NCBI GenBank assembly: GCA_022478985.1
Contig: JAKSZP010014859.1
Coordinates: 18,995 to 82,994 of the forward strand
Direction: 5' to 3'
DNA from: Massospora cicadina
Lineage: Eukaryota; Entomophthoromycota; Entomophthoromycetes; Entomophthorales; Entomophthoraceae
Length of the DNA: 64,000 bases
Part shown: piece by piece, positions 34 through 57,879 of the stretch
Numbering within the stretch: position 1 is the stretch's first letter
How the letters are laid out: the number at the start of each line of letters is the position of its first letter
Program-made: the position numbers and the translations under genes
Notes under the pieces: generated by a model
What the model was told of the DNA's origin: nothing
Database searches by the model: none
The model's input: the letters and a program-made list of their open reading frames with translations, nothing else

Positions 34-1443
34 CTATGAAGGCTCCGATTTTGCATACAATTCAGCCTTCGCTGCGTAGTCAGATGCCCCCATGACTGCA
101 TCCTGCTTGCAGGTACTCTCAACATTCCTCTCCAAGGTTTTATACCTCAAAATCATGGGCCCTAGCTGCCTACCAAAGATTTCACATGCCGTCTTGAGAT
201 TAGCCTCCATCTTTAGCCATTTTATTGGCGCATCTGGCTTTCCCAATGTGGCTTCTCCATCGTCTCACCTTCTTCCTCCTGATCTCCTGGAGTGGAGACC
301 ACTTAAAGAGTTCAGGGTTCAGTTTACAGATCCCTTTCCCCTCAGAAGCAACCTGAGGGTCACTGATCTGCAGTCCAAGGGGCCTGTATACCAAAACACC
401 TGTATCATAATATCGAAGGATTAACTTGAAGTGACACAGGAGAGGTCTGGGCACTGACACAAGATCATGTGGAAGAAATGATCCCTCTGAACGTGATTTC
501 ACCCAGTCTCCCTCTCCTCACCACAGCCCACTCTCCATACATCCTGTAAACTAATGTCAATCATTAAACTGGCCAACTTGTGGGTTCCAGGATCAGAACT
601 TTAGTTGCCTGAAGCCCCAATCCTGTCATCCCTAAAGCAGATACAGCTTATGTCTCCTCCCAGTACTACCGGACTCCCCCAATGCCTTCCTCCTAGATTC
701 TCAGGCCAACTTTCTGGAAAAAGGCCTTTCTTTCAGACCCAGAATTAGGTACATATAAGTCAATAAACCAAATTGATTCCTCTCCAAAAAATGACAGCAC
801 TGCCACTGCTCTTTATAGAAACCAATATCCTTTTATCCAGCACCTTAGCTTTGTCCGCCCACCAGAACAAGACACCCCCCTTTGGTTTCCTCCTCCCTTT
901 TTCCCTCCCCTAAGGGTGAGTCTGAGTTTGGTTGATCCACAAAGTGAGAGTAAAATGACTGCTTCATAGGTAACTGCAAAACCAGTCCTCTTCCACCCCA
1001 GGTTTGGAATTAGTCTCAGTGAGGAAGCTGATATCTGCCCAGTGTTGTTGCAATTGGAGTTTCACTTGCTGCCGCTGCCTGAGGACATTCAGACCCCACA
1101 AGTTAGAAAATTCAACCCCTGATCGCCATAGGTTTAAAACCAAAGAGTCTTTGGTGTTAGGATATAGAGGTTTCATCCTCTTCCACCTCAGCTGGTTTAA
1201 CTGGACCACGTTTTTTCCTCCCTTTTCCAGTACTAGATGTGCCAGGAGTGGTGGCTGCTTGGTCACAGCAGTCTCCGGAATCTTACAATTGCCAGGGTCC
1301 TCAACAGACCCCTCTGCTTTGGTTGGAAAAATTGGGTTAGAAGGCCTTAGCCCACTATTGCTACCAGAAAGAACCTCCCTCACCTCTGCCTCTTCCCCTA
1401 CGGGCCAAGCGTGCTCTGTGCCACCCACATCCCTAATGGTCAC
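34..1443 (-). pseudogene. LINE-B ORF2, endonuclease (APE-like) region and spacer, decayed
   Basis: The block 1443-964 ends with an RQRQQVKLQLQQ segment followed by DISFLTETNSKPG. That is the N-terminal strand of an endonuclease/exonuclease/phosphatase fold with the catalytic Glu in the TE pair. The block 502-34 corresponds to the spacer between endonuclease and RT (KPDAPIKWLKM...). It lacks the 22-codon insert present in B2 at 36294-36376, so it preserves the pre-insertion state there. Stops interrupt all frames. Confidence 0.7.
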
Positions 1444-4309: not shown

Positions 4310-4327
4310 TACAATAGCTCAATGCCA

Positions 4328-4917
4328 TCATCAAGAGGGAAACACCCTCATGAGTATGAATATGACCCATTGGCGGGGACAAAAGAGTTTGGAATTAATT
4401 AATTCTTCAACCAAAAAGCCAAAGAATGGATCCTGCAAAACCTAACAGAGGTTTAAGACATGAAGCGCCAACTGGAAGAGTTGGACCTCGCCCATAGGGA
4501 AGCATGGGAGCAAGAAGCAGCCAAGCGACCTGAAGCAGATTACAAGCTCTTCATTAACTAAACCCTTAATCATACAAAATGGACTAAGGAACAAGCCCTG
4601 AACCATCAGTGCCATGCCCATCCCAAGCAGAATGGATGATTGCAAGGAAGAACTATGGCAGAAGATGAACCAAAAAATCCTCCAAGAAGGGATAGGCAGT
4701 GCAGGATGCCAACAAATTGAAACCAAAGCCTGAAAAGTCAAAAGCGAATAAAAAAGCAACTTATAAATCATTGGTGAACAAACCTGAGGAGACTAGCAAT
4801 CAAAAAGCTGAATTGGCAAAATTGGCAAAGTCAGTCGATCAGAAACTGACCAAAAAGTCCAAATCTGCTGAAAAATCTAACACAGTGGCAGGAATCCAAT
4901 CAATGGATGAAAGGTAA
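4328..4917 (+). pseudogene. LINE-A ORF1, C-terminal half, decayed
   Basis: Matches A2 17250-16690. It has an EYEYDP motif, then the helical segment ELDLAHREAWEQEAAKRPEAD, then a strongly Lys-rich tail (4699-4917, KPKPEKSKANKKATYKS...) typical of a basic RNA-binding terminus. Stops fall at several positions before the Lys-rich tail. The Lys-rich frame on its own looks like a small basic protein but is clearly the end of ORF1 by comparison with A2. Confidence 0.7.
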
Positions 4918-5237
4918 TCTGCCACACCGCTGGTAGGGACCAAGGAGCACCTGGAGCTGGTAATAAAACTGTCCCCATTGTCCATCAATAGGTAGATGGG
5001 GGTGGCAACTGAATTCCTGGTGCACAGAGCGCCCAGTAATATAATTCCAGTTCTGATCAACTGACCCTAGAAGCTGAACAATACTCCCGCACACCCTCAT
5101 TGACACTGACCACCAACAAGCAAACTTCAGTCCACAACTCTTTTCACAACCCAGAAAATATTAATCCCCAAACCCATGAGTAAGGCATCAGGAAATGAGG
5201 ATTGTTACCACAAATGCTCGAGAGAGTGAGCATATAA

Positions 5238-5995
5238 ATGAGAAGGTGGGAGATACACCATTTTAAAAAGAACAATAATATAGAAATAATTTTAATATCA
5301 GAAATGCAATCAGGTAGCAAAAAGGAAATAATGCTGAGCTCAAACTGCGATGTGATGAACCAACCGTGGTCCCGCCAAATAGGCTGTCAAGCCCTCTGGA
5401 TGGATCATGTGGTGATTGTAACACTGAACAAGAGCATAGACCTGGAATTCATGGAGGAAGTTCATTTTAAAAGGATCCTGGTAGTGACTGCTATGAATAG
5501 AGAAACTGGCAAGAGCCTTTGAATGGTGGCTGTCTGTGCTCCACCAAAGCCCAGCAAAAACAAAAATTATGGAATCTTTTATCATAAGTACCAGCCAAAC
5601 CAATGACAGTTATAACAGGAGACCTGAATTTCTGGACAAATGTGAGTTAGGATACGTTCCATACAAGTGAAAGTCCCAACTGAAAGGCTGATGAGATGCT
5701 AGAATACCTAGTCAAATTGGGGATGTGCCTCATGATTGATAAAGAGGATGACGACCTGGCCAACCCAATGGGATGGACATACAGCTCCACCAGAACTCCA
5801 CAGGCTGGTTTGCGCCTGGGTTATATACTGGTGCTGTATGCCCTCAAGCCGCTGACATCCAACAGAAAAGTCAATATAATTGCCAAAAGTGACCACATGA
5901 TTGTCCATGTGGATATTGATTTGGACAAACTCCCAAGGAACTACAAATGGCAGCTGGCACCAGCCACGCTGAGGGATGGGGAATGGCGCTGAACA
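5238..5995 (+). pseudogene. LINE-A ORF2, endonuclease domain, decayed
   Basis: APE-type endonuclease that would nick the target DNA. Readable blocks are ISEMQSGSKKE (catalytic Glu region), ALWMDHVVIV, LEFMEEVHFKRILVVTAMNRETG, then after frame changes LVKLGMCLMIDKEDDDLANP, an LGYILV motif and SDHMIVHVDIDLD, which holds the conserved SDH-type histidine. Stops and shifts between 5523 and 5696 destroy the frame. Confidence 0.75.
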
Positions 5996-6879
5996 ATTAA
6001 AGCCAGATGGGATTGACTGGTTGTGTATCTGGATTATCACCTGGAGATAGACCCTCTGGAATGATGGATCCAGATCAAAGAGAAGATGAAGCACAATAGA
6101 ATAACGTTTGAAAAAGCAACTACCTACAAGCAAACTGCTTCAGCAAAACAGCTGAAAACTGTACTGGAGAGGTTTAAGCTCACTCTACAGGACAGCAAAG
6201 AATGGTGGAGCAAGTACTGAACAATGCACTAATGGTATCAGGCCTTAATGGTGAAACAGGATTTGTAGTGATGGATCAACGCTACTTACCAATATCAGAG
6301 CTTAGTGGGGACAATGACCAATGAGGGCCTGGCACACCTCAGGGAATCTGAATCAAGGCTAAGATACAGGAAGTAGAGACAGCGGAAGGAGTTGTATCAA
6401 CAGACCCAGAAACTATCAAGTGAGAGATCAAATGCTTCTATGGTGATCTATTCTGTCAACGAGAAATGAGCAAATCAGCACTAGTGCCCTAATTAACTTA
6501 AGCAAGCTGACACTCGGGGGCTGTATGTTGGAAGATGTTGTTAACTTATCTGCTGAAATTTCATTTGATGAAGTTAATTGGACTCTAAAAGAGTCACTGA
6601 TGATGAAGACACCAGGCTCAACAACATGTGTGTGGAGGTGTACAGTGCATTCTGCAACTGTATTGCACTGTAACTCAAATATCTCTTCAATCACTGTTTT
6701 GTAAAATGGACAGCAAATCCTGGGAGGCCAGGAGACCCAAATTGTACTCTTGTACAAAAAGGACTCCAACGCCAACTAGGAACTGGTACCTGATTGCAAT
6801 ATTTAATGCCGATTATAAGCTGCTCACACGTTATTATTAAATTGGCTGATGGCAACGGCACCAAATATGCTCCATGAGG

Positions 6880-7310
6880 CCCAAAACATGTTCATTAAGA
6901 GCCGGAGCATTTGGGACAGCATCAGTGCAGTCCAAAGCGTACTCCAGGATGTGTGGGGAACCAAGAAGGGATATCTCATGTTTCTCAACATGGAAAAGCC
7001 TATGATTGAGTAGCGTGGTCATTCCTACATGAGGCGTTAAAGGCAGTTGATATCCCCAAAAACCTTTAGATCTTGGATAACAACACTGTAATCAAGCCTG
7101 GTAACCAAGGTGATCATCGCAGACAGTATAACTAATGACATTATTGTTGGGCAGGGCCTCCAACAAGGTGATCATATGTCACCAATTTTATTCAATTTTA
7201 CAGCTAAAATTTTATTAGTGGCAGCAGATGCGAAAATCTGGGGCATATTCCACCCAAATCAAAAGTCACTGAAGATGTTGACATTCGCCAATGACAGTAG
7301 TATATAATCT
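6880..7310 (+). pseudogene. LINE-A ORF2, reverse transcriptase core, decayed
   Basis: Contains the fragment LNMEKPMIE (from LDMEKAYD, the first catalytic Asp region) at about 6985. Next comes VGQGLQQGDHMSPILFNFTAK (about 7146-7205), the template-grip motif of LINE RTs. The fourth block is TFANDSS at about 7283-7303, where the second catalytic position reads ND instead of DD. It could not polymerise even if the frame were intact. Confidence 0.75.
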
Positions 7311-7539
7311 CGCCAACTAACCTCCAGGGCGCCGAGGAGCTACTAGACCTATACCAGTTAGCATTAAATGCAAAAATCAACTTGGCAAAAACCTTTGTAA
7401 TGAGGACGGCATCCTGAACTTTAGCCTACAAACTGACACAGAACTGATCATGAACTCCCAGACAATCTGATACCTCAGGATACTCTTTAATGATAAGGAG
7501 CCAGTAGTACTGGAAACTGAGAAATAGTAAAATTGAGTC

Positions 7540-8900
7540 TATTGGTCCAAACGGCGTGCTGGAAAAATGCCAGACTATACCTTGAGGAGAAAGTGTTGGC
7601 AATCAACATATTCATCTTCTTGAAGCTTTGGTATGTTTCTCATGTGCTGCCAATGATCCTGAACCTAGAGAAAAATTAGGATAATGCTCTGTACCTTCCT
7701 ATGGTTCAAGGTGAAAGAGGCACTAATAACACTAAAAACTCTGTTTAAACCAAAGGATAAAGGAGGCGAGGGCATCTTGGACTTTAAATCCCACAATTGG
7801 CGGATCTGGGCAAAGTCATTCCTTATATTGATGCAGATGCACATGCGCTGCCCAACCCCTAGCTTGAAGCATGAACTGGGCTAGAGTTCAGGGCCTTCAG
7901 GAGCCAGTTCACCCTTCTCACTATGTGAATGGATGGCAAACCACCCACAAATTCTATCCTGAAAAGGCACCCCATATTACTGGTCACTGTGCAATTGGGC
8001 AGTGCGCCAGGGTGGCTGGTTGTTTGAATTAGCAGATCGGGATTCCAACCAAATCCACACGGCTGTCAAGGCCTGTAATTCTGCAATGATTTACATGACA
8101 AATTGGGAAGAACAGAATTGAATCACCAACAAATGCGCTGCCAAGTCATTCATAATCAGCTACAAATTGACCCTGATTGAGTACAGGAATCCACTCATGA
8201 AACCTGGGTGCAAACCACCTGCTCAACCATGAATCCTGAATAACTGGGCAACTGAAAGCCATGACACCAACTACCAAATGAAGGAGTTGATCTCAGGCCT
8301 TAACTTCTGAAAAGTAATAGCCAAGCATCAGTTGATACTGGCAGATCCTACGCCATGCAATTAAATCTGGTAAGCATAGTGGACCAGATTACCGTACAAG
8401 GAGTACCTTGTATGCGCCAAACTGGAAGCAGATATCACTCACCAATATTATGAATGCGCCATGTTCAAAAAGTATTGGTCCACAATGTGATAAATTCTAT
8501 TGGGAGAATAATTTCTGATGGAAATGCATCTGTCACAGAGCCTTTTTTTATAAAAACACTGAGATTATCCCCAGTCCAATTATAAGCCTTCATCTATCAT
8601 TATTATGTATGGGTGATAAACCAGCTCTCATGGCCAAAAGATTGTCCAATGAGTGCCCCATCACAAAAGTTTTTGTGTTGAAGACTATTCAGATTATCTT
8701 CAATCAGCTCCAATAAATCTTAAAATTCTCATGCCTAATCCCTGGGTGCTTCAAAGCTGCACATTTGGCTTTACCCACTGGATCACTCATTGTATGCAAT
8801 AAAGCAACAAATATATTAAAGTTTGAATGGCCTATAAGCCTGCTGATGCTAGAACTGTGGCTAGTAATGCCAATTGCCAACCAGCAATGGTCAGAGGTGC
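7540..8900 (+). pseudogene. LINE-A ORF2, thumb and C-terminal zinc-finger region, decayed
   Basis: The frame 7684-7884 reads TFLWFKVKEALITLKTLFKPKDKGGEGILDF, the conserved segment after the RT thumb seen in L1/Tx1/Tad-type LINEs. Further down, near 8405-8470, lies a decayed version of the C-terminal zinc finger (compare CPICAELEADIAYHYYECAVF in A2). After about 8900 the sequence is the 3' UTR. Many stops. Confidence 0.65.
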
Positions 8901-9106
8901 TATGTTTCTAGTGGCCCAAATTCCCAGTCCTTTATCCTTGGCTAAATTGCTTGTGTTCCACCCTCCTCTCTTACTTTTTCGTTTAATTTTTTAAATAAAG
9001 TATGGAGTTTATAAAAAAATGGTAGAGCCTTCACTTATAGTGCAAAAGTCATGAGGACCAATATCCCAATTCTCTATTTTTATACACTTTTCTTTAACTC
9101 ACTGTC

Positions 9107-9582: not shown

Positions 9583-9586
9583 TTAA

Positions 9587-9828
9587 CCCTTTGCACTCCG
9601 CTGTCCCCTCTCAGGGGACATTGTAGTTCTAGCATATCACTTGGATGTCCCCTCTCAGGGGACATATAAGTTTATTAATTCCCCATAATCACTAATAAAC
9701 TTTAATGTCCTCTGAGAGGGGACATCTGAGTGATATGCTAGAATTATGATGTCTTCTGAGAGGGGACAGGAGTGCAAAGGGCTAGAATTATGATTTCCCC
9801 CTGATAGGGGACAGCGGAGTGCAAAGGG
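9587..9828. mobile_element. piggyBac-like MITE 1
   Basis: A 242-bp inverted-repeat element flanked by TTAA on both sides (9583-9586 and 9829-9832). Terminal inverted repeats begin CCCTTTGCACTCCGCTGTCC. TTAA targets and CCY starts are piggyBac hallmarks. The interior carries several copies of the near-palindrome tgtcccct/agggga. The right arm contains an extra copy of the terminus (ggagtgcaaaggg at about 9769-9781). Confidence 0.8.
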
Positions 9829-11110: not shown

Positions 11111-11127
11111 AGAATTTGAACAACTGA

Positions 11128-11719
11128 TTTTTTTAGCACTAGTGGTGCCCAACCCAAAAGGGGGAACTGCCACAAATCTTTATTTGCAAATAAGCAAAAC
11201 AAAGGGATTATCATAAATTAAAAAATTCTTAATATAGCCCCTTAGGTTATCACCCTAGAAAGCCATATCAGAAGGTGAGGAATCTTTGTAGAAACTTTTG
11301 TCTGGCACCCACTTTAGCTGGTGGACCATGGCAGACAACATAGGGGTAGGGGCATCAGCGACATGGGGCATGAGGAGGTATAGCTGTGGGTTTTCTTCAT
11401 TTATGAGGCTGGCGGTATCCATCACCTCAACGTATTGAGCAAGTTGATGCTCAGCGAAAGTGATGAGAGTCAGCACACAAGTGAAAGACTTGATGCGCTT
11501 TTGGGTTTGGGGGTAGTTGGGGTAAAAAGAGAGGTTTTTCATGTTGATGAAAGTGCAGCTTGTATCAAAAGCAAGCTCCTCAATTTCATATTTAGCATCT
11601 TCATTAAAATTGGAAGGGAAATTTGGGATGGGAATACCCTCAACTAGGGGTTCCATCATCCCATTGAGATGCTGGCGGAGAAGGGTGTTGGCAGGAGTAG
11701 CTGCGGCTTCCACTGCCAT
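11128..11719 (-). mobile_element. 592-bp coding retroposon (154-codon unit), copy 1
   Basis: The insertion is bounded by a 9-bp target duplication: aacaactga at 11119-11127 and aataactga at 11720-11728. A closely related empty site is readable at about 12172-12180 (aacaactga). On the minus strand the unit starts directly at the ATG of the ORF. It ends in a 3' tail finishing with ccactagtgctaaaaaaa. The last 49 bases recur as a separate insertion at 36311-36359, and the whole unit recurs at 56710-57293. These features indicate RNA-mediated mobility. Confidence 0.8.
11255..11719 (-). CDS. 154-residue protein of a small coding retroposon, unknown family
   Basis: Intact ORF of 154 codons, ATG at 11719 to TAG at 11255, starting exactly at the element boundary. 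It is a soluble-looking, mostly helical protein with no signal peptide. Its N-terminus is Ala/Thr/Pro-rich and contains MEPLVEGIPIP; blocks shared with the second copy include SFTCVL, FAEHQLAQYVE, ENPQLYLLMPH and DAPTPMLSAM. I recognise no family. Copy 2 (56710-57172) differs largely at third codon positions in these blocks, which suggests that the lineage copying itself was under protein-level constraint. It could be an amplified host retrogene or the product of a small autonomous element. Confidence 0.7.
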   Translation of the reverse strand: MAVEAAATPANTLLRQHLNGMMEPLVEGIPIPNFPSNFNEDAKYEIEELAFDTSCTFINMKNLSFYPNYPQTQKRIKSFTCVLTLITFAEHQLAQYVEVMDTASLINEENPQLYLLMPHVADAPTPMLSAMVHQLKWVPDKSFYKDSSPSDMAF

Positions 11720-11728
11720 AATAACTGA

Positions 11729-12217
11729 CTTTTTATAAAATTTAAGTTTAGAGCCAAAAGCTGAGTAGATTATTCTAGAGGAGGTACTTTTAAAATCAAT
11801 TGGACTTTTGATTCAAAGTTTTGATTTAGATTAATTTGCTAATTACCCAAATGACCACTAACCATTTAAAAAACCATTTAAAACCTTAAATCAACTGAAT
11901 TCTAATTGCTCAGACATAACTATACACTGACTACCATTGAAAATATATAGGATTTTTACTTGATACATGTAAACTTTACTTTAATTGAAATTTAAAATTT
12001 TTGATGAATTATTGTATTTTCATTAAAGATATATAAGTGTGCCAAATTTAAGAATTTTTATTGGCAATAAGTGTCTGGAATAGAGCTTGTAATATTTAAT
12101 TACAGACAGACAGAAAGACAGAATTGACAGTGAGTTTAAGAAAAGTGTATAAAAAGTGATTACGCCAGGATTTAAACAACTGACCTTTTATAGAGTTGAA
12201 GTTTAGAGCCAAAAGCT
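11729..12217. repeat. AT-rich repeat DNA that served as LINE A2 target
   Basis: Two related segments (about 11735-11950 and 12161-12217 joined to 20554-20760) share a track like gaagtttagagccaaaagctgag. The second one was split by LINE A2. A microsatellite cagacagacagaaagacag lies near 12105-12123. No gene seen. Confidence 0.6.
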
Positions 12218-12344
12218 GAGCCAATTATGCTAGATTTTTTTCATGAACTCCATACTTTATTAAAATAAATTTAAGAGAAAGTAAGAGGGAGGGCGGAATA
12301 TAAGCAATTTGGCCAAGGGTAAAAAGGACTGGGGGTTAGGGCCA

Positions 12345-12893
12345 CTAGAGTTTTAGTATCTCCGACCATTGCTGATCAGCAATTGCCATTGCTAGCCACA
12401 GTTCTAGCATTAGCGGGCTTACAGGCCATTTGATTCTCAGTTGATTAGTTGCCTCATTGCTTGCAATGAGCGATCTGATGGGGAAAGCAAAACATTTGGC
12501 TTTATAACACCCGGGGATTATATGCAAAAATTTTGAGATCTGAAGGAGCTGATTGGAAATAATTTGAATGGTCTTTAATATCAAACCTCTGTGATGGGGG
12601 CACTCGTTGCTCAAAACCTTGGTGATGAGCGCGAAGTGAATTACCCATGCACAATAATGGTAAATGAAGGCTTGTAGTTGGATCAGAGCCATTCTCAGGG
12701 TTTTTGTAAAGAAGAGGTCCTGCAATGGATGTATTCCCAGTGGCGATTGTTCGCCTGAAAGGATGTAACACATCATGGACCAGTGTTTTTTGAACACGGC
12801 GCATTCATAGTAATGGTATGCTATGTCTGCTTCCAGTTCAGCGCATATGGGGCATTCTTTGTGCTGGTAGTCTGTGCCGCTGTGCTTGCCCAA
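12345..12893 (-). pseudogene. LINE-A2 ORF2, C-terminal zinc-finger domain
   Basis: 182-codon open block near the end of ORF2. It begins with KHSGTDYQHKECPICAELEAD followed by YHYYECAVFKKHW: a Cys-x2-Cys...Cys arrangement like the zinc-binding domain that follows RT in many fungal, algal and plant LINEs. The remainder is hydrophobic/helical and ends just before the 3' UTR. The domain probably helps bind RNA or the target. This block is uninterrupted, but it is cut off from the upstream RT by stops (about 12900 and 13250). Confidence 0.7.
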
Positions 12894-13251
12894 TTTGAAA
12901 GCCTAATTTAGGATCTGCCAGGTTACCAAACTCTGTTTGGCCATTACCAAGTGGGAGTTCAGGCCCAATATCAACTCCTTCATTGGGTAGTTGGTGTCAT
13001 GGCCTTCAATAGTCCAGTCATTTAGGATTTGTGGACAGGTGGGCGGATTGCACCCCAGTTTTGGGAGCGGATCCCCATATTCTATCAGCATCAATTTGTA
13101 CCTTATTCTGATCAACTTGGTTGCAATCCTCCCAGCTTGTTGTAGAAATCATTGCAGAATTATATGCTTTGACATTCCTTTAAATTTGGTTGACCTCTCA
13201 GTCCAATCACTTAAATGACCATCCGCCCTGGCGCATGGCCCGATTGCATAG

Positions 13252-14420
13252 TCACTGGTAGTGTGGGGAACCTTTTTGGGAGGTAAAACACGGGTGGTTT
13301 GCCATCCATTCACATATTGATTGGGGAGACCAGCTCTTGGAGGCCTTGGGCTCTTCCCAGTTCACACCCCATGCTAGGGTCAGGCAGCGCATGTGCATCT
13401 GTGTTAGCTTCAGGAATGACTTCCCCCATATACACTGGGCGTGAGATTCAAAGTCCAAGAAGCCCATGCCTCCTTTGTTCTTTGGTTTTGACAGGGCTTC
13501 CAGTGGTATTGGTGCCACCTTCACCTTGATCCACAGGAAAGTTAGGAGCATTGACCTAATTTTCTTCTCTAAGTTCATGATCATTGGCAGCACATGAGCA
13601 ACATACCACAACTTTGAGAAGATGAAGACATTTATTGCCTGCACTTTCTCCTTGAGGCATAGTTTGGCGCTTTTCCAGCATGCCATTTGGATTGATAAAC
13701 TTGACAATACTTCCTGTTTGGTCTCCAGTACGGCTGGTCTCTCTTGTTGTTGAAGAGTATCCCAAGGTATCGGACTGTCTGGGAGTTCATAATTGGCGTT
13801 GTGTCAGTTGGCGGGCTGAAGCTTGGGTTGCCAACCCTCATCACTGAGGTTTTTGCCAAGTTGATTTTTGCGTTTGATGCTAGCTGATAGAGGTTTAATA
13901 GTTCCTCAGCGCCCTGGAGGTCAGTCAGTGAGCTTATTACTAATACCATATCATCCATGGAAGCTAGTATATTCAGTGTCATCTGGTTAGGGTGGACTAA
14001 ACCCCAGAGCTTTGCATCCGCTGCTGCCAGTAGAGTGTTGGCTGCAAAGTTGAAGAGTATTGGTGACATAGGGTCGCCTTGGCAGAGACCTTGCCCAACA
14101 GGGAATTTGTTGGTTATGCCATCTGCAACAATAACCTTCGTTATCAGGCCTGAGTTCAGTGTCGTTATCCATGCTCAAAACATGTTGGGGATACTGACTG
14201 CCTTTAGTGCCTTGTGAAGGAAAGACCACGCTACTCAGTCATATGCCTTTTCCATGTCAAGGAACATAAGGTACCCCTGTTTGATGCCCCTTGTATCCTG
14301 GATTACGCTCTGGACTGAGCCAATGCTGTCCCATATACTACAGCCTTTGATGAAGCCATTCTGGGCACTATGGAGTGAGCGCAGTGCTGTTGCCATCAGT
14401 TGATTAGATAGTATGTGCAT
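13252..14420 (-). pseudogene. LINE-A2 ORF2, reverse transcriptase and thumb
   Basis: Polymerase that would copy LINE RNA at the nicked target. Visible blocks are MFLDMEKAYD (about 14267-14238), then GQGLCQGDP-type sequence and MSPILFNFAANTLLAAADAK (from 14069), then ILASMDDMVLVISSL with the DD catalytic pair preserved, the INLAKT motif, and the thumb with SKLWYVAHVLPM, TFLWIKVKVAPI and KNKGGMGFLDF (13707-13252). Two frames are needed to read it, and an in-frame TGA lies between the LDMEKAYD block and the rest. L1/Tx1/Tad-like by architecture. Confidence 0.85.
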
Positions 14421-14516
14421 GAGCAGTTTATAATTGGCATCTGATAGTGCAATTGGGCGTCAGTTCTGAAGTTGGCGTCTGAGGCCTTTTTGTACAGAAG
14501 TACTATTCAGGTCTCA

Positions 14517-14817
14517 GGGGGTGGAAGGTGAGTTGGTAGGGTGTACGGCTACCAACCTGAAGGTTGTGGGTTCAATTCCCGCCCTTCATACATTGATCAG
14601 GGTGCCAGCCAAAGGAAACTATTGGCGTTTAGTAGGCCTAATAACATGTTAACCTTACCCATGATGTAACCAGAAAAATTTGAGTCCTGATCCGGAGGTG
14701 GAAAAGACTTTCTTTGATGGAGTTGACCCTGTTCAGGTTTCCTGTCATTTCTTTCTTTCATTTCTTTCTTTTGGTAATGCCTGTCCCCTGGTCAGCTTGC
14801 CTTGGTTAAATAGAAAA
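14517..14817 (+). mobile_element. SINE-d inside LINE A2 (antisense)
   Basis: A 301-bp insertion with a 16-bp target duplication, tactattcaggtctca, at 14501-14516 and 14818-14833. The head is tRNA-like, with A-box-like tgagttggtaggg and B box gggttcaattcc. The body has a tttctttctttc tract. The end ctgtcccctggtcagc followed by ttaaatagaaaa resembles the tail of the other SINE families. Younger than A2. Confidence 0.85.
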
Positions 14818-15101
14818 TACTATTCAGGTCTCATGGCCTCCTGGAATTTGCTTGCCATTGTGCAAACAGTGGTTAAAGAGGGCTTTGAGCTCCAGTGCGA
14901 TGCTGTCTCTGAATATGCTGTATATTTCTGCACACATATTGTCAGGGCCTGGTGCTTTCATTATTGGCGACTCCTTTAGCGCCTCTTAACTTCATCAATA
15001 GAGAATTTGGCGGATAGCTTGGTGACATCTTCAAGCGTACAGCCCCCCAGTGCCGGCTTGGCCAGGTCAATAAGGGTTTTTGTTGCCAATTCGCTCATTT
15101 C

Positions 15102-15485
15102 TCATTGTCGGAAAGAGATCACCATAAAAAGCACAACCTTGTATTTGATAATTTTGGGGTCTGTTGATAATTCCCCTTCTGCTGTCTCCACTTCCCATAC
15201 CCTAGCCTTAGTTTGGATTTCCTTGAGGCTTTTCAGGACATATTTGGTCATCGTCCCCGCTAGGCTCTGATATTGGTAAGTTACATTGGTTTGTCTCTCT
15301 GAGTCTTTCTTCATCATTATGGCCCGATACTTTTTGCGTGTTGTTTGGTACTCGCTCCACCAGTCTTTACTGTCCCAGCGGGTGAGCCTCAGCCTTTCAA
15401 ATTTAGACTTAAGTTGTTTCATAGCAGCAGTTCTCTTGTAGGATGTCTCTTTTTCAAACTTTATACTATTGTGTTTCATTTTCAC
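15102..15485 (-). pseudogene. LINE-A2 ORF2, linker between endonuclease and RT
   Basis: 127-codon open block, highly charged and helical (KFEKETSYKRTAAMKQLKSKFERL..., KDWWSEYQTTRKKYRA). It resembles the coiled linker found between endonuclease and RT in LINE ORF2 proteins. The same block is recognisable in A1 (about 6085-6440) and A4 (about 60680-60290). Confidence 0.7.
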
Positions 15486-15572
15486 TTTGATCCGGGTCCA
15501 TTGCTCTAGCAGGTTTAACTCTAGGCAGTTGTTCAGATACGCTACCAGTTAATCCAGACCAGCGTCAACCTT

Positions 15573-16166
15573 TCAGCTCCAATCCCCATCCCTCAGTGTG
15601 GCTGGTGCCAATTGCCACTTGTGGTTGCTTGGAGGTTCATCAAGGTCAATCTCCACCCAGATGACCATGTGGTCACTTTCAGAATTTATGCTAACCTCAC
15701 TGTTGGATGTCATTGGCCTGAGCTCTGATGAAACTAGGATGTAGTCTAAACGTGATCCTGACAGTGGGGATCCAGCGGCGTCATATGACCACCGCGTTAG
15801 GTTGGCCAGGTCGTCATCCTCTTCATCAATTGTTAGGCACATCCCCAATTTGACTAAGTAATCGCGAATCTTGTCAGCCTTACTGTTGGGATATTCTCTC
15901 ATCAGGAACATATCCCAGCTCACATTCGTCCAACAGTTCAGGTCACCTGCTATTACAATCGCCACTTTGGATGGCACTTCCACTAAGAATTCCCAAAAAA
16001 TACAGTTTTTGTGGAGCTTCAGTGGGGCGTAGACTGCTGCCACTTGTATGCTCCTGCCAGTTTCTCTGTTTGTAGCCGTCACTATAAAGATCCTACCAGC
16101 ATGAGTTTCTTCCATGAATTCCAGGTCTATTTTCTTGTCCATTGCAACTATCGCTACATGGTCCAT
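15573..16166 (-). pseudogene. LINE-A2 ORF2, APE-like endonuclease domain (near complete)
   Basis: 198-codon uninterrupted block. It starts at MDHVAIVAMDKKIDLEFMEE and contains RIFIVTATNRETG, VAAVYAP, the Asp/Asn motif IAGDLNCW, the SRLDYILVSSELRP block and the terminal catalytic histidine in SESDHMVIWVEIDLD. These are the hallmark motifs of endonuclease/exonuclease/phosphatase-fold LINE endonucleases. The N-terminal strand with the catalytic Glu lies upstream in another frame (about 16270-16200). Best endonuclease in the window. Confidence 0.85.
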
Positions 16167-16666
16167 CCATAGGGCTTAATAGCCTATCTGGTGGGACCAC
16201 AGGTGGTTTTTCGCATCACAGTTTGAACTTGGCACCATTTCCTTTTGGTTACCAGCTTGTGTTTCTGAAATAAAAATTAGGTGAATATTATTATTAGTTT
16301 TTAAATGGTGCATTTTTCCTCCTCCTCATTTGTATGCTTGCCATCCCCCAAGCATTTTTGGTCTTTATCCTCATTTCCAGCTGCCCGACCCATGGGTATG
16401 AGGTTTAGCGTTGTCTGGGTTGTGGATCAAGTCCCTTACTAAGGTCTGGTTGGTCGATAATGGTGGTGTTGATGGTTGGCGGGGTACCATATTTGGTTTT
16501 TGGGGTCAGTTGGATGGCACTGGGATTATATTACTGGGCATCCTGTGTACCAGGAATTTGGTCACAATCCCCATCTCCATGTTGATGGATAATGGGGATG
16601 GTTTTATGATCAGATCCAGGTGCCCCTTGTTCCCTGCTGGCAGAGCGGTGGATTCTCCCTCTTCCA

Positions 16667-17530
16667 TCAGTCATATTCGCACCCCTTTGTTTGATTTAAT
16701 GGCAGAACTTGATTTTTTAGTCGGTGATTGCCTGGCTGATTTTGTTGATTTCGTCGCTCCTGCTGCTTTTTCACCAGTTGCCTTAGTTTATTTGCTGATG
16801 ACTTCCAATTTAATTTTGTATTCACTTTCATCTTGTCAAGCTTCAATTTTGACTTGCTGGCATCCTGCATCCGCCCTTGCTTGGGAGAATTTTTTGGGTT
16901 CGCCTTCTGCCATATAGACCTCCTCCCAGACCATCCATTCCACTTGGGTTGGACGTTTCTCTGTTGGTCTGAGGTTGGTTCCCTCATCCATTGCGTAAGA
17001 TTTGGGGTTCAGATTTATAAACGGTTCATCATCTGCTTCAGGTCGCTTTGCCATTTCCCATTCCAATGCTTCTCTATGTGCCAGGTCCAATTCTTGTTGC
17101 TGGCATTTCATATCTGCTACCTCCATTAAGTTGCATGGGATCCATTCTCTGGCTTTTGGGTGGAGGAAAGTCTTGGTACCCACCTTGGTGATTCCCCCAA
17201 CGGGGTCATATTCATATTCCCGTGTAGTTTTACCTTTATGGTGGTGGCATTGAGCCATTGTGTGGCCATTCTGGTAGAAGAACGGCACACTTGTTTGTCA
17301 TCCTCCTGTTTGATGTATACTACTCTATCAAGGCCGGGCAGGCGGATGAATCTGGGTAGAGCAATTTTGTTTGGTTTCATCCAGGGTGCCAGTTTGTATA
17401 GCGCTTCCACCGTCCAAGGGCGGAGGCACTTTGCGATGTAATAGCCACCAGCTTGCCAGAATTCTTGTACTTCCCCATAGTATGATAATATGGTACAGAT
17501 CACTTCGTGCACCTACTCCTATTTGCAATC
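16667..17530 (-). pseudogene. LINE-A2 ORF1, C-terminal nucleic-acid-binding part with CCHC knuckle
   Basis: Reads VHEVICTILSYYGEVQEFWQAGG... (17512 down), a compact domain ending in LPRFIRLPGLDRVVYIKQEDD. A zinc knuckle follows, with its second half GHTMAQCHHHKGK at about 17260-17225. The first Cys pair is disturbed here by a shift but is present in A4 as CQFC. Then come EYEYDP, the ELDLAHREALEWEMAKRPEAD helix and a Lys/Gln-rich tail (16987-16667). Overall it resembles the RRM-like plus CCHC ends of other LINE ORF1 proteins. Confidence 0.7.
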
Positions 17531-17794
17531 AGTGGGGAGATTCTGGAAGGTTACCCACCTTGCAGTTTGGTTGGTGTATCTGGTCTGTTCCATTTGCAGA
17601 TAAATCCCCTGGTATTTGATGCCAATTTCGAGGAGTTTCTTGTGGTCCAACTTGCCTGGGATCGCTATATCTATATATCCTCATTTGGGTACTCAGTGGT
17701 GATCAAAGTCCCCTTCAGCTAGGACTTCTTCAAGTTCCTGATAAATTGACAATATCAGGTCAGACCATTCCTCCTCCTCCACTAGCTGCAGGAG

Positions 17795-19500
17795 GATTCA
17801 GATAGCATCTTTTAGGTATGATTTTGGTGCCTGGCGATCTGTAAAGCCCCTGTTGATCAACTGACAGATGTACTCAATGTGGCTCCCTGCTCCATTCCAG
17901 GTGTTGTCTTCGGTATGCGCCACCACGGTGCTGTAGGATTTGGTTTTTGCGCTTGGTTTGGGTACTTTGGTGGGGGTCTTTCCCTTCAAAATCCAACTTA
18001 CCAATTCATCGAGGCTGAATACCCAGTTGAGGAATGCTTTGATCTGGTGGATGCTGATACCTCAGTGGCTGATACTTATAGCCATTTGTGCTCCAATATC
18101 TAGGCTCTGCCAATCTAAGGCATCCGATGGTGAGAATCCCAGTTGGTACCAATTGAGGGCAGAATCTGGGCCACACGTTATGTGGATGTATTGTTGGAGG
18201 ACCTCCAGTGTAATTGAGCTACGCTGGCACCAGTCTCTTACTGTGACACTATTCCAGCCCCCATATGTAAATACACATGCCATGTCTTCTGGAACACCTG
18301 CTTCACTCCATTGTAACACTTTGGAGGGGGTGAAGCCTTCTGCGGCATATGGGGCCACTAGCATCAGTTTCGGGAAGAATTGCTTCCAATTCTGGATAGT
18401 TTTGATGTGGATCCCCGCTTTGAGCCATTCTCAGCCCAAGTCTGGGGTCATGACCCCTTTCATCACTGTTGCCACCTGTGGTGAAATCTCATGTTCCATC
18501 CACGGTTGGTCTGATTGGGGGGTGAACCCCACTGCGTCCCAGTCTGCAGCCTCGGTGAGAGTTGCAGCATCATGCCAGATTTTCCACTTTTTGATTGGGA
18601 AAGGTCAGCCTCTAAGAGTTTTGTAAATCGGTTTAGTCACCCCCAGCTCTGCCCATTTGCGCACTAGGTCCATACTGGCCCCCACTTGAAACCAGTATTT
18701 TATATCCATTGGTGTGAATCTGTTGGCGGACCAGTTGATGGCCTCTTCCAGTGACCAATCCTGAAAGGGTCCCCATTCCACCACTTTTTCCTTTGTCTAG
18801 CCCACTTTCATCAGGTCTGATGTGGTGGCTGGTGGAATTTGGGTGTATGACCAGTGTAAGGCCTCAGTGGCCTTGAATCCAGCTGTGATCCATGGTAGTG
18901 CCTCCTCTGGGGAGAAAGTAATACTATACTATCCAGTGCTGTGTCCACTGGAATGGAGTGTCAGGCCCATTTTAGGGCCATTGAGGCATTCAGGAATCAT
19001 TTCACATACTCAGCTAACTCTGTTGGGTTGAGGCCCGAGCTCCCAACAGCTTGGGCATATTGTGCTGTAATGCCTGCCTTGTTGTACTCCATCACATTCA
19101 ATAGGTCAATGCTGGCCTCCATCCAGGCTTTTGCATCCACCATTACTAAAATTTTTGCAGATTGTGGCCTCTATCACCTTGTACTCCACGGGGATCTTTA
19201 TCCATTTCAGGGCATTTTCAGTCCTAACTCATGATGCCTTGAATAGTACTACCATGTTGATTGAGATTTGGGTGTTGAGCCAGCATTTGGCTGCTCTGGC
19301 AGAAAATTTGTGGTCTCACCATATAGCTGCAATGACTGGTTTGATACCTTTGGAGACCCACTGAGTCACCATAGAGTACAGAAACTGGAGGGCCTCCCAT
19401 TGTTTGACCTCATGGGCAGACATGTCTCAGTGTGCAAACTTGTCTGACTAGATCAGTGTAAATTTAACTGGGGACTTGGCCACCAACTTGACCACTGTTG
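17795..19500 (-). pseudogene. LINE-A2 ORF1, Trp/Gly-Phe helical-repeat region
   Basis: Long low-interruption frame, clearest between 18930 and 17990, built of repeated short units of the type W-x(3)-G-F-[ST]-P-x(2)-A-[LI]-x-W. Examples read 5' to 3' are LPWITAGFKATEALHWS, LEEAINWSANRFTPMDIKYW, ADWDAVGFTP, LQWSEAGV and LNWYQLGFSPSDALDWQSL. The spacing of about 16-18 residues suggests a helical solenoid. The same order of units is readable in A3 (about 46240-48300) and A4 (about 64000-63000), so it belongs to the protein and not to one decayed copy. No known ORF1 domain comes to mind. Confidence 0.7.
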
Positions 19501-20829: not shown

Positions 20830-22110
20830 TCATCACAATTGGATGAATGGTATAGAATGCATTTGGGACATACAGACAGACAAAGATACAGATGGACATT
20901 CATTTTTAACCAACTTTGAAAAAGAAGGAGGTTATCAATTCGACCTGTATGTTTTTTTAGATGTTTATTCGCGCATAACTGAAAATACTGGGCCTATTTT
21001 GATCATCGTCTCCAAAATCGAGGATGCTCCAATTTAGGTCCCATTTTACTTTTGTAAGTATTGGGCAAGTATAAGCCTATTAATTTAGTAAATATATCAA
21101 ATTGGGCTCGGAAGCGATAGATACTTGTGGGACTAACACAACTCCGGATAAACGTTTTTCCGGCATCAGTCAAGTGATAGCTTCGAAGCACTTTTGATAT
21201 GTCCTATGGCTGGGGGGTATGTTCAAAATTCAGTCAGTATGAGCTCATAGCGGGATGAGCTTAAATCATTATAGAGGCTATCATTTTTGCATGATTTAAG
21301 CAATAAAATCATCTAAATTTAATAAAATGGATTATTTTAGATAACGATCAATAAATTTACTTAGCTTGACTATTAAAAGCAACCAAATCTAATAAAATGA
21401 ATTATTGTAAATGGTGATCAGTAAATTTGGCATACGTTGACCAATAAAGTCATCTAAATTTAATAAAATGAGTATTGTAGATGGTGATCTGTAACTTTAG
21501 TATAATTTGACCAATAAAATCAACTAAATTTAATAAAATGAGTTATTATAATATTTGTTTATAAGATACTATATATAAAATATATATAATGAGTTTTATT
21601 TTTAGAGAAAAAACAAGGGGCCAAAAAGGATATATATAGATAGTAATATTTAATAAAAGTAGGAAAAAGAGCCATTTTTAAAAATGCACTAATTTTTTAG
21701 GGGAAAAGAGCTAGGAATAAAGGTTTTTGGGAAAAAAGAACCTTCTCAAAAAAATTTTGGGAAAAAAAGAGCCTCCTTTAAAAAAAGCTCTAAAAAGTAT
21801 GCTATGATTGAGAAAATATACCTCCTCAATAAAACCCTTTTTTGAAGTTGGCGCCATATTTTGACAAACTTATAATAGCCATTTATAATTTATATACTCA
21901 GTACTATTTATATTAGGATGCTTATAGTTTACACTTGGACCCAATCCAGACATAAAATATAATTTGTATTTGTGAGCAAAATTCTATAATTAAATTTAAA
22001 ATATGGTGCCAACTTCAAAAAGGGTTTTATTGAGTAATCTTAATTTCTCAATTATTTCATAATTTTTAGAGCTTTTTTTAAATGAGGTTCTTTTTTCCCC
22101 AAAGTTTTTT
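20830..22110 (+). repeat. Mosaic repeat: S segment, about 70-bp tandem array, fold-back end
   Basis: S segment (about 20908-21140, with ggacc-like and gaggatgctccaat marks) is shared with 24140-24360 and 57575-57731. A degenerate tandem array follows, whose units include accaataaaatcatctaaat (21290-21560), then AT-rich DNA. A fold-back closes the element: arms at about 21756-21862 and 21998-22104 pair over about 105 bp around a 135-bp spacer. No gene. Confidence 0.7.
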
Positions 22111-23604: not shown

Positions 23605-25345
23605 ATATATATAATGATAAAAGCAAGTGTGTGTGCATATGCGCAATGCCCAGCCAAAACTATGGCATACAAAGCTTTAAATTTTGGTTATATATGGATG
23701 ATAAAGGGGTTTGTGTGCACCTCAAAGCTGGATCTTTAATATTCACAATAAACTAAAAAGTTTAATATGTAAGATGTACAATTTTAATATATTTTTGATA
23801 GAATTCAGTATATTGGTACAGCTAAACTTTTAGTATTTGGTTGATCAATAGGTTAAATAGTTTTGGCAAACGGTTGGTGGGTTTATTTGATTAATAAGCT
23901 TGATTGTTTTAGTAAGCAGTTATTGATTGGTTTATTCAATAAGTTGATTTGTTTTTATAAGTTGTTAATGTTTTTTGCATTTGGTTGATTTAAAGATACA
24001 ACAATTGGTTTTGGCTGGATGGGTGTTTGGTGGATTTAGAGTTGATTTAATAGGCTCAATGGTTTCAGGTAAATGGTTAATTTTTTAGTTAATTATGATA
24101 TGTTTAATTGGTTTTGGGTGATTGGTTGGTAATTAAACAACTTTGAAAAAAAGAAGGTTCTCAATTTGACCTGTATATATTTTTTCTATATTTTCACGCA
24201 TAACTCTGAAACTACTGGACCAATTCAGTTTGTTTCTTTCTCAAAAATAGAGGGTGCTCCATCTTAGATTCCACTTTACTTTTGTAAGTATTTTTTAGTA
24301 TATGCCCATTAATTTCAGTAAGTATATTAAAATGGACCATAAGCAATGGATTTTGATTGCGGGAATGTTCATTGCTAGGTAAGCTTGCTTCTTGCATTGG
24401 TGAAGCAGTAGTTTCAACTTAACTTTTGCTATAATATATGGCCTATAGTTGGGGATATGTTCAAAATCCAGGCAAGAATGATATCATAGTGCAACAAACA
24501 TAAATCATTATAGATGCATATCTATTCTGCATAGTTTGACCAAAAAAATAAATCTAATAAAATAAATTATTGTAGATGTCAATCAGTAAATTAGTTAGAT
24601 TTATTAATAAAAATTAACCAAATTTAATAGATTAAAGTATTAGTATTTGTTTATAAGAGGGTGGTTAGACTGGCAGGTAAAGCTGCATCCACCTTAGTGC
24701 AGGTTTCAAGTTTGAAACCTGTACTGGCTAGAAAAAATTCTCAGTGTGGTATATTTGTCCCAAGGTCGACCCACCTCTAATATAAAAGTATTAGTTTATA
24801 AGATACTATATATAATATATACACAATGATTTTTATTATTGCTGAAGTAGTGAATTACAAAAATGATATATAAAGATAGCGATGAATTAAATTAAATATT
24901 GGGAAAATACTGTTAAAAATGCACTAAATTTTTTTGGGGGAAAAAGAACTGGCTTTAAAGTTTTTTTTTTTGGGGGGGGGGAAACTGGCTTCAAAAAATT
25001 GGGAAAAATGAACCTCCTACAAAAAAGGGATCTAAAACTATGAAATAATTGAAAAACTTTGAATACTTAAGTATCCTTTTAGAAGTTGGTGCTTTCTTCC
25101 AACCTATCTTTTAGAATTTTGTCCACAGATATAAATTGAAGCTTATATAAAATTGGGTCTAAGTGTAAACTATATGCAACTTAGAATATATAGTGCTGAG
25201 TACACATATTTATAAATGCTTATCTAATGAAGTTTAAAATATAATGTTGAATTAAATATGGTTTTATTAAGTATTTATAATTTCTCAATTATTTTATACT
25301 TTTTAAAGATTTTTTAAAGGTGGTTCTTTTTTCCCAAAAAGTATT
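23605..25345 (+). repeat. Longest copy of the mosaic repeat (R head to fold-back)
   Basis: In order: R head (23605-23850); about 44-bp degenerate tandem array with ggttggtgg/gattcaatag-type units (23850-24135); S segment (24136-24360); about 70-bp array (24480-24657); SINE-a insertion; AT-rich part with a T-run/G-run (24960-24981); fold-back arms near 25000-25110 and 25230-25345. The array from 23850, the S segment and the later parts recur in the same order elsewhere. No gene. Confidence 0.65.
24658..24783 (+). mobile_element. SINE-a, full length
   Basis: Head gggtggttagactggcaggt, B box region ttcaagtttgaaacc, and tail gtgtggtatatttgtccc, gtcgacccacct. Flanking DNA repeats as aagtattagt...ttataag on both sides, giving a target duplication with a small indel. 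Confidence 0.8.
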
Positions 25346-35359: not shown

Positions 35360-36536
35360 GTTGAATTCACTCATGCGTGAGCCTGAATGCCCTCAGGCAA
35401 TGGCAGTGAGTGAAACTCAGATTGCAACAACTAAGGATAGATATCAGCTTGCTCACTGAGACTACGTTTAAACCTGGGGTGGAAGAGAACTGGTCTTGCA
35501 GTTACCTCGGAAGCAATCATTTTACTCTCACTTGGTGGATCACTAAACTCAGATTCGCCCTTATGGGAGGGAAAGAGGGAGGGGGAAACCAAAGGGGGTA
35601 TCTTGGTCTGGTGGGCGGACAGAGCTAATGTGATAATAAAAGAATATTGGTTCATGGAAGAGCAGTGGCGGTAATGTCATTGTTTGGAGAGGAAATTAAA
35701 ATTATATTATAGACATATATGAGCCCAATTGTGGGTCTGAAAGGAATGCCTTATTCCAGAAGGTCAGCCTGAGAAACTAAGAGAAGGCATTGGAGGGTCC
35801 AGTAGTGCTGGGGGAGATATGCACGGTGTCTGCTTTAGAGATGGCAGGATTAGCGCAGGCACTGGAGTTCTGATCCTAGAGCTCACAAGTTGGCCAGTTT
35901 AATGATTGACCTTAGCCTACTGGATGTGTGGAGAGCGGGCTGTGATGAGGAGGGGGAGACTGGGTGGACTCACGTTCAGGGGGATCATTTCTCCCACACT
36001 GACCTTGTGTCAGTGCCCTAACTTCTCCTGTGCCACTTCAAGTTGATCACTCTTAATCATGATACAGGTGTTTTGGTATACAGGCCCCTTGAACTACAGA
36101 TCATGACCCTCAGGTTGCTTCTGCGGGGAAAAGGATCAGGAAACTGAACCCTGAACTATTTAAGTGGTATCCACTCCAGGAGAACATGAGGAAGAAGGTG
36201 AGACGATGGAGAAGCCAGATTGTGGGAAATCCAGATGCTCCAATAAAATGGTTAAAGATGAAGGCTGAACTCAAGATGGCATATGAAATCTTTGGGAGGC
36301 AGCAAGGGGCATTCGTGGCGGCTTCCCCTTTTGGGTTGGGTACCACTAGTGCTAAAAAAGGGAGGCAGCTAGGGGCCATGTATTTGAGGTATCAAACCGT
36401 GGAAAAAAGCTTTGAGAGTACCTGCAAGCAGGCTTCAGTTATAGGGGCATCTTCCTACACAGCCAATGCTGACTTGTATGCGAAATCAATGGGAGCCTTC
36501 ATGGTAGATCACCTCAAATAAAGGAAATCTAGGTGG
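35360..36536 (+). pseudogene. LINE-B2 ORF2, endonuclease and spacer
   Basis: 35410-35628 reads KLRLQQLRIDISLLTETTFKPGVEENW, the N-terminal strand of the APE-like endonuclease with its Glu. Downstream frames are heavily interrupted. The spacer block 36186-36521 (RKKVRRWRSQIVGNPDAPIKWLKM...) is open and includes 22 codons contributed by a small insertion (36294-36376). Confidence 0.7.
36311..36359 (+). mobile_element. 49-bp 5'-truncated copy of the 154-codon retroposon
   Basis: Matches the last 49 bases of the unit at 11128-11719, including gggttgggtaccactagtgc and the A-run. It is flanked by a 17-bp duplication, gggaggcagcaaggggc (36294-36310) and gggaggcagctaggggc (36360-36376). Insert plus one duplication is 66 bp, so the host LINE frame is kept. 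B1 has the uninserted sequence at about 160-180. Confidence 0.88.
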
Positions 36537-56434: not shown

Positions 56435-56690
56435 ATAATAATAAAAGCAAGTGTTTGTGTGCGTGTATGCAATGCCTAGACAAAACTACAGCATTTAGAT
56501 TTTTGAAATTTGGGTTTAGGAAGATGTAGGGGGCTCATGTGCACCTCAAAGCCAGAATTTTAATTTTTATAAGTAGTAAATCTTTACATGTAGGAAGTAA
56601 ACTTTTATATGTTTCTATTGGTTTTTGGTATATTGTTATGGCTGAAAAATTTGATTTTAGTTGATTCAATAGTTTAGTGGGTGTATCCCA
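56435..56690 (+). repeat. Interspersed repeat R
   Basis: Starts ataataaaagcaagtgtttg and ends near gattcaatagtttagtgggt, where the second coding retroposon is inserted. No gene. Confidence 0.7.
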
Positions 56691-56709
56691 TTTATAAGAT
56701 ATATATAAA

Positions 56710-57172
56710 ATGGCAGTCAAAGCCACTTCAGCTCCTGCTAACACCCTACTCCACCAGCAACTCCATGGGGCAATGGAACCCCTGGTTGAGGGTATTCCTA
56801 TTCCCTTTTCCTCATGATTTTGAGGAAGATGCAAAATATAAAATTGAGCTCACTTTTGGTGCAAGCTGCGCTTGCATAAATATGGCAAAAACTTCTCTTT
56901 TTAACCTCAATTATCCTGAAACCCAACGCTTCATCAAGTCTTTCACTTGTGTGCTGGCTCTCATCACTTTTGCTGAGCATCAACTTGCTCAATATGTTGA
57001 GGCGATTGACACCGCTAGCCTCATGTATGAAGAAAACCCACAACTATACCTTCTTATGCCCCATATCACTGATGCTCCTACCCCAATGCTGTCCGCCATG
57101 TTCCACCAGCTAAAGCTGACAATGGACAAAAGATTCTCTAAAACTTTCTCCCCTTCTGATATGGCTTCCTAG
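56710..57172 (+). pseudogene. 154-residue retroposon protein, copy 2 (frameshifted)
   Basis: Starts MAVKATSAPANTLLHQQLHG...PLVEGIPIP, which parallels the intact copy. A one-base indel near 56808-56820 then shifts the frame. The rest (from about DFEEDAKYKIE) is open to TAG at 57170-57172. Conserved blocks: SFTCVL, FAEHQLAQYVE, NPQLYLLMPH, DAPTPMLSAM, SPSDMA. Many differences from copy 1 are third-position changes, for example in the LLMPH and PTPMLS regions. Confidence 0.7.
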
Positions 57173-57293
57173 GCTGTTAGCTGCGGTGCCACATACAAAA
57201 TTCTTTTATTTCTAATAAACCCTTTGTTCAGCTCATTTGCAAATAAAGATGCAAGGCTCCCCCTTTTGAGTTGGGAACACTAGTGCTAAAAAA
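56710..57293 (+). mobile_element. Coding retroposon (154-codon unit), copy 2
   Basis: Aligned with 11128-11719 from the ATG to the terminal cactagtgctaaaaaa. Its 5' side may include a few more bases (tttataagatatatataaa) before the ATG. No clear target duplication was found around it. Confidence 0.75.
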
Positions 57294-57735: not shown

Positions 57736-57879
57736 TTTTATAAAATCCAAACATTATTTAAAAATTTAACTTAAATGAGAAAGTAAGGGGGTTGAACACA
57801 GTTGATTCAGATGAAAAATAAAGGACCAGGAAGATGGGCCAATAGTTCACTAGTATCTCCAAACATTGGTGGTGGGCAA

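Follow-up and report, generated by a model that had tools for sequence, protein, structure and literature searches.

What kind of element begins exactly at the start codon of an intact reading frame? The question is raised by a 592-bp unit at 11128-11719 of the stretch of Massospora cicadina DNA analysed here, which is 64,000 nucleotides long and is referred to below as the window. A sequence-only reading had described the unit as mobile DNA that encodes its own protein of 154 residues, and had proposed either a very small LINE-dependent coding retroposon or a host retrogene amplified as a repeat. Searches of the window, of the genome and of protein and structure databases lead us to a different view: the unit is very probably a 5'-truncated copy of a 1.9-kb, HAL1-like, non-autonomous retroposon whose sole coding content is a LINE-type ORF1.

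The unit and its relatives in the window

The insertion lies on the minus strand, a strand that the sequence-only reading had not given, and its 5' end is at 11719. Its parts and its surroundings are as follows:

11128..11719, minus strand: very probably a 5'-truncated copy of the 1.9-kb ORF1-only retroposon, corresponding to reference positions 1317-1910
11255..11719, minus strand: open frame of 154 codons plus stop, the ORF1 C-terminal domain read from an internal Met codon, recognised by its homology to the corresponding domain of P0002-type proteins
11128..11254, minus strand: 3' noncoding end of 127 bp, with AATAAA and A7
11119..11127, plus strand: target duplication AACAACTGA, 3' side of the insertion
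11720..11728, plus strand: target duplication AATAACTGA, 5' side of the insertion
12175..12183, plus strand: empty paralogous site AACAACTGA, with the site present once

The insertion itself is real, and several of its described features hold. The uninterrupted frame starts at the inner edge of the 9-bp duplication, whose two sides agree at 8 of 9 bases; an equally good match was found in 0.155% of 20,000 trials with random pairs of places in the window. The terminal A-run is present as A7, and the empty site, previously placed at about 12172, is found near 12175-12183, with an 85% match between 11720-11779 and 12175-12234.

Two further copies occur in the window, one of them absent from the earlier description:

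56682..57293, plus strand: copy 2, with its ATG at 56710 and a possible but weakly indicated 5' end about 28 bp upstream
23845..23870, plus strand: empty paralogous site of copy 2, with flanks aligning up to 23855 and from 23853
36311..36359, plus strand: copy 3, the final 49 bp of the element, heavily 5'-truncated
36294..36310, plus strand: target duplication of copy 3, GGGAGGCAGCAAGGGGC
36360..36376, plus strand: target duplication of copy 3, GGGAGGCAGCTAGGGGC, identical to GGGAGGCAGCAAGGGGC at 16 of 17 bases
158..174, minus strand: empty paralogous site of copy 3

The second copy was known from 56710-57293, where it is 80% identical to the unit and its frame is disrupted by a 2-bp loss near codon 32. 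Its presence is confirmed, but its start at the ATG is less certain: no clear target duplication is seen there (5 of 10 bases, a level reached by 42% of random pairs), and the 28 bp or so before the ATG weakly resemble the upstream sequence of the element, with 1% of 3,000 random 28-mers of the window scoring equally. Copy 3, the newly found one, sits inside another repeat, and its 17-bp duplication was matched equally well by none of 20,000 random pairs of window places. The insertion of one 3' end with differing flanks and lengths is a mark of LINE-type retroposition.

Among other features of the window, direct repeats at 26799-27681 and 31914-32796, 85% alike and 5.1 kb apart, are probably the LTRs of a Ty3-type element, and we take a stretch near 28403-28576 to be integrase-like. 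An imperfect palindrome of about 200 bp at 9584-9784 is 82% self-complementary, and tandem units of about 70-76 bp occupy 21278-21550 and 23121-23344.

The full element in the genome

LINE expansion in M. cicadina is noted in a published survey (PMC10515909), and the published assembly of this fungus is given as 1.49 Gb (PMC9584336); the assembly searched here comprises 1.47 Gb in 16,968 contigs. When the best 40 of 8,811 loose candidates for the unit were scored, all 40 proved to be copies, 88-90% identical to the unit (the window itself apart); of the 592 bases, 39 of them cover 584 or more and the remaining one covers 559. Most extend beyond the unit's ATG: 31 of the 39 copies fetched continue to the limit of 300 bp taken, and the remaining eight start at reference positions 1057 to 1350. 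The sequence-only reading had named a nesting of all copies inside one larger transposon as evidence against itself, and this is largely what is observed, since those 31 copies continue upstream in a 1.9-kb element.

The extent of this element is given by two sets of loci. Four larger loci hold collinear copies of 1,906-1,920 bp with 86-88% identity, and duplications are visible in their flanks. A second sample was obtained with the 127-bp tail, for which the best 40 of 1,307 candidates were scored and 30 loci were read: 12 copies extend as far as the locus does, and the other 18, the window copy included, are 5'-truncated at scattered points. Once extended, all 12 edge-reaching copies converge on a single 5' end at a distance of about 1.9 kb: 11 start at reference base 1 and the other at base 6. 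A thirteenth stretch, a truncated control, showed no extension. Candidate target duplications accompany all 12 full-length copies, the shortest (8-12 bp; L078, L085, L087 and L088) being unconvincing taken singly; among the truncated copies of both samples, 16 of 26 have a duplication scoring at least 20. The unit and tail samples share at least three loci, and both consist of best-scoring matches, not random draws.

In all 30 tail loci, the sequence 5' of the tail is either the ORF1-only element or flank. The element consists of an N-part, a C-terminal domain and a short 3' UTR with an A6-7 tail, and its 3' ends read ...CACTAGTGCTAAAAAA, or ...AATAAATC followed by A. Duplications of variable length, an A-rich 3' end and 5' truncation are together what is expected of a retroposon mobilised by a LINE. 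As to its kind, the idea of a LINE-dependent coding retroposon fits well with the scattered truncation, the variable duplications, the A tail and the coding constraint described below; 'very small' does not fit an element whose full length is 1.9 kb, with one common 5' end. The unit is not a whole element and corresponds to the 3' third of the longer one, with its Met codon at reference position 1317, within ORF1. The 154-residue frame observed in it is a survivor of truncation and no gene in its own right.

The encoded protein and a sister subfamily

A search with the 154-residue protein returned one relative among 13 candidates, P0001 of M. cicadina (75% over 65 residues). An alignment-based search reached P0002 (37% over 101 residues), and further searching brought the relatives to 39, all of them M. 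cicadina gene models. At E 1e-4, the C-terminal domain of P0002 is matched by 31 of these, its N-terminal part by 15 and both by seven, which covers all 39. The domain order comprises an N-terminal part with an RRM-like region, a CCHC zinc knuckle, a linker and the C-terminal domain. The exact CCHC spacing occurs in three of the 39 gene models (P0032, P0034 and P0035), which may splice pieces across supposed introns and so do not prove a single reading frame. In the genomic copies, the upstream part of four full-length elements is 38-55% identical, by piece, to the ORF1-like P0035, and the N-part profile matches full-length copies with E down to 1.6e-53. Type I ORF1 proteins are defined by one or more RRMs directly followed by a CCHC knuckle (PMC4120745), and the present layout looks like theirs, the RRM-like region being assigned by resemblance. 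The ORF1 identity of the element rests on layout, CCHC motif and a weak profile match to one ORF1 piece of the LINE in the window.

One relative combines two sources. The first part of P0001 (L0F63_004011) is sister-subfamily ORF1, residues 1 to 43-46 being 74-86% like eight sister proteins; its second part is the unit-type C-terminal domain, and for residues 50-114 no match at E 1e-4 was obtained among the other 38 proteins. The gene model may be two insertions joined by the gene finder. P0001 had been considered as a LINE carrying the unit-type domain, an idea that was dropped.

The sister subfamily has the same layout as the unit's element, with younger copies and a C-terminal domain 37% identical to that of the unit's subfamily. 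A genome search with P0035 gave 104,225 loose candidates, which are not confirmed copies; the best 112 were scored, all with E below 1e-200. Two sister stretches (L091 and L092) are 98.2% identical over 1,904 bp, one of them ending early at a contig end. L091 holds one open frame of 648 codons that spans all domains and extends beyond the 3' end of the element. In L092, the main frame ends after 476 codons, shortly past the beginning of the C-terminal domain, and the domain continues in another frame (626-2053 against 1876-2370), the change falling at a C-run just before that domain. For this copy taken by itself, programmed frameshifting, a second small ORF or an assembly error are the options. 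Exactly 476 open codons are found in 22 of the 112 sister matches listed, so the frame shift is common, and either inherited or systematic (programmed, or a systematic assembly error at the C-run).

ORF1 without ORF2

The full-length copies bounded by duplications contain ORF1-like sequence and a 3' UTR only, that is, ORF1 without ORF2. The same holds for the two sister copies, which end after ORF1, as they are flanked by duplications of 16 and 18 bp that lie immediately beyond the 1,904 bp. In the unit's subfamily, a whole ORF1 is absent from all 15 full-length copies examined. Their longest plus-strand frames have 110-317 codons; minus-strand frames reach 84-222, hence frame length alone is little evidence.

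The 1.9-kb copies could instead be repeated internal-deletion products of an unseen autonomous LINE with ORF1 and ORF2, with no self-renewing family behind them. The ORF1 layout is indeed a LINE layout, and HAL1s are described as having arisen independently several times in mammals (PMC5753468). However, the copies read have both ends and the ORF1/3' UTR junction in common, and in the sister subfamily, whose C-terminal domain is 37% identical, the two copies read likewise stop after ORF1. We regard such deletion products as improbable, although they are the most serious competitor to a retroposon family that encodes only ORF1.

Among the 30 tail loci read, none showed a partner LINE that shares the 3' end of the element. 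The window has its own LINE with endonuclease and reverse transcriptase (EN/RT), in three copies that are about 67-73% alike and have short A6-7 tails:

4311-9019, plus strand: EN/RT LINE
12236-18817, minus strand: EN/RT LINE
57734-64000, minus strand: EN/RT LINE

Its reverse-transcriptase match is above the Pfam cut-off, and its endonuclease matches are just below. This LINE is a candidate for the partner machinery, with a 3' end unlike that of the unit. It shares with the element the genome, the A6-7 tails and a weakly similar RRM-like ORF1 region, but differs from it in its ORF1 and 3' end, and no unit-type C-terminal domain was detected in it above threshold. The ORF1 similarity is weak: the N-part profile matched one ORF1 piece of this LINE with an hhalign probability of 9.5% (P 0.0034), where 30 shuffles reached 0.9% at best, the LINE's CCHC piece gave no hhalign match to the element profile, and a plain profile search of the 64-kb window with the N-part returned nothing above threshold. 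The 144-residue reverse-transcriptase piece of the LINE had no match in L001-L008. By eye, the N-part of its ORF1 (about 17700-18900, minus strand) shows repeated W..aGF.p..A..W motifs of about 35-40 residues.

Host gene or repeat protein

A host RNA-binding retrogene amplified by LINEs, its resemblance to ORF1 being convergent, would account for a protein to which Pfam assigns no family, and whose link to the ORF1 of the window's LINE is weak. In the unit protein and its scanned relatives (eight proteins), no Pfam family scored above cut-off; zf-CCHC_4 appeared below cut-off, at E 0.14, in one of five proteins. Set against this, an RRM upstream of a CCHC knuckle is the defining order of type I ORF1 (PMC4120745), and all 39 relatives fall in one repeat family. 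We consider the retrogene unlikely, and the earlier suggestion of one found no support, the 39 relatives being pieces of a repeat-family protein with LINE ORF1 layout.

Structure prediction, which had been proposed as a check together with profile searches, yielded no confident fold. AlphaFold gave a pLDDT of 42 with three sequences, and with 30 sequences a pLDDT of 64 for an all-helical model with a pTM of 0.38; Foldseek against PDB returned nothing at E<=0.001. Given these low scores and the empty search, we make no claim of fold. A PDB sequence profile reached E 4.3e-6 with entries that carry the name immunoglobulin G-binding protein A, in a match confined to profile positions 59-96 and with no stretch passing alone in the best two, and 0.052 with a designed helical repeat protein; these matches are probably due to helix composition and were rejected as homology. 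An origin from a viral capsid or endogenous virus was also rejected: three pattern matches were seen in viral contigs and none was confirmed. Phage records contained no match, and viral structures gave nothing at E<=0.001.

Coding constraint

The differences between the unit and copy 2 had been described as rich in third positions and as a sign of constraint on the protein, and the counts agree: 38 of 153 third positions differ, against 27 of 153 and 17 of 154 at the other positions. With codons at and near indels left out, dN/dS for this pair is 0.33 over 144 of the 154 codons, against 0.74 +/- 0.21 for a null of shuffled differences, and as low a ratio was reached in 4 of 3,000 shuffles. Over 39 copies and 741 pairs, from which the incomplete L030 was left out, dN/dS is 0.47 at a mean dS of 0.17. 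Twenty sister copies (190 pairs) give 0.57 at a mean dS of 0.04, a ratio biased downwards by the choice of the best protein matches; split by depth, the 142 closest pairs give 0.70 and the 48 deeper pairs 0.39. The null covers the unit and copy 2 only, and neither the 0.47 nor the 0.57.

Over all sites, codon positions 1, 2 and 3 differ by 0.098, 0.075 and 0.114, and the noncoding 3' part by 0.082, less than the first positions. Away from CpG, the values are 0.057, 0.043 and 0.071, with 0.072 for the 3' part, as constraint predicts. A frame of 154-155 codons is kept in 10 of the 39 copies examined, two copies that do not start at the ATG being left unjudged. In its coding constraint and protein homology the element is unlike a SINE, which would be noncoding and of tRNA, 5S or 7SL origin.

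Recurrent 5' ends

The start of the unit at an ATG is not unique to the window. A 5' end at 1317-1318 is found in four copies (the window, L011, L033 and L069), and other ends recur at 1385-1386, at 1527 and at about 1561. Among 15 ends, nine pairs fall within 2 bp of each other where 1.3 are expected (P 0.0002); with the window copy removed, 14 ends give six pairs where 1.1 are expected (P 0.003). The count uses 14 of the 25 other truncated copies, the remaining 11 having been dropped for lack of a clear duplication or for unclear placing, and the two samples behind it partly overlap. Three ends were handled individually: L076, which satisfied the stated rule, was removed manually because the script had plainly misplaced its start; the 5' end of the window copy, whose duplication the script missed, was entered by hand; and L050 was entered as 1560 where the output was 1561, with no pair affected.

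Recurrent ends could arise from RNA structure, reverse-transcriptase stops or microhomology, and transcription starting at the ATG is weakened as a cause of the unit's start, since 5' ends recur elsewhere. That the unit forms a small coding retroposon of its own, with the ATG as its start, perhaps as a sub-element arising from an internal start in the 1.9-kb element, is accordingly very unlikely. In its favour, four copies do begin no more than one base from the ATG and have a duplication each, three of them (the window copy, L011 and L033) do not group as sisters in a tree that is poorly resolved, and the 154-155-codon frame survives in the ten copies counted above. Against it, 31 copies of 39 continue upstream, and the other recurrent stops make the ATG one among several.

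A possible mechanism and its relation to known elements

From what is known of LINE biology, RNA of the 1.9-kb element would be taken up by the endonuclease and reverse transcriptase of a separate LINE, with priming at the nicked target in target-primed reverse transcription. Copying would often halt early, leaving 3' fragments, some of them with an open remnant frame like that of the unit. The ORF1 protein may favour the RNA that encodes it, as ORF1 constraint without ORF2 suggests, and this would explain why a non-autonomous element has kept its frame. It is a tentative reading that the element derives from a LINE, has discarded the reverse transcriptase and is under selection for a cis-acting ORF1, while ranking, with at least two subfamilies, among the commonest repeats of a giant fungal genome; we think it somewhat less likely than its opposite. 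The frame shift in many sister copies lowers our confidence both in this cis-acting reading and in the truncated ORF1-only retroposon as such.

The closest parallel is HAL1 (half-L1) of mammals, a non-autonomous LINE derivative described as coding only ORF1p (PMC5753468). HAL1 derives from L1, whose ORF1 is of type II (coiled coil, RRM and CTD; PMC4120745), whereas the element described here has a type I-looking ORF1 with a further C-terminal domain, and is fungal; no parent LINE of it was found. PF02994, the type II ORF1 family, is absent from the matches of the eight proteins scanned, and with the CCHC spacing in three of 39 models this separates the element from HAL1 proper (L1 clade). RIME and NARTc of trypanosomes are likewise short retroposons deleted from a LINE and paired with it, but are called noncoding in the same source (PMC2323293), whereas the present element keeps most of ORF1 under constraint. 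The RRM upstream of a CCHC knuckle is shared with LINEs having a type I ORF1 (I, Jockey, R1, Tad1, plant L1 and L2 clades; PMC4120745), from which the element differs in that no endonuclease or reverse transcriptase is seen.

Our literature searches found no paper combining Massospora with LINE and ORF1, and no fungal ORF1-only LINE, which does not prove that none has been described. Mammals are known to have ORF1-only LINE derivatives; an abundant element of this sort in a fungus, with another type of ORF1, would show that ORF2 has been lost more than once while ORF1 was kept, and points to an ORF1p that serves its own RNA. An immediate consequence concerns annotation: for M. cicadina, 39 entries or clusters that GenBank labels 'hypothetical protein' represent fragments of a retroposon. 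If the cis-acting reading is true, the element, itself a parasite of LINEs, bears the cost of a protein whose only benefit is that the element's own RNA is selected, and the cis-preference of ORF1p would be measurable from genome data alone.
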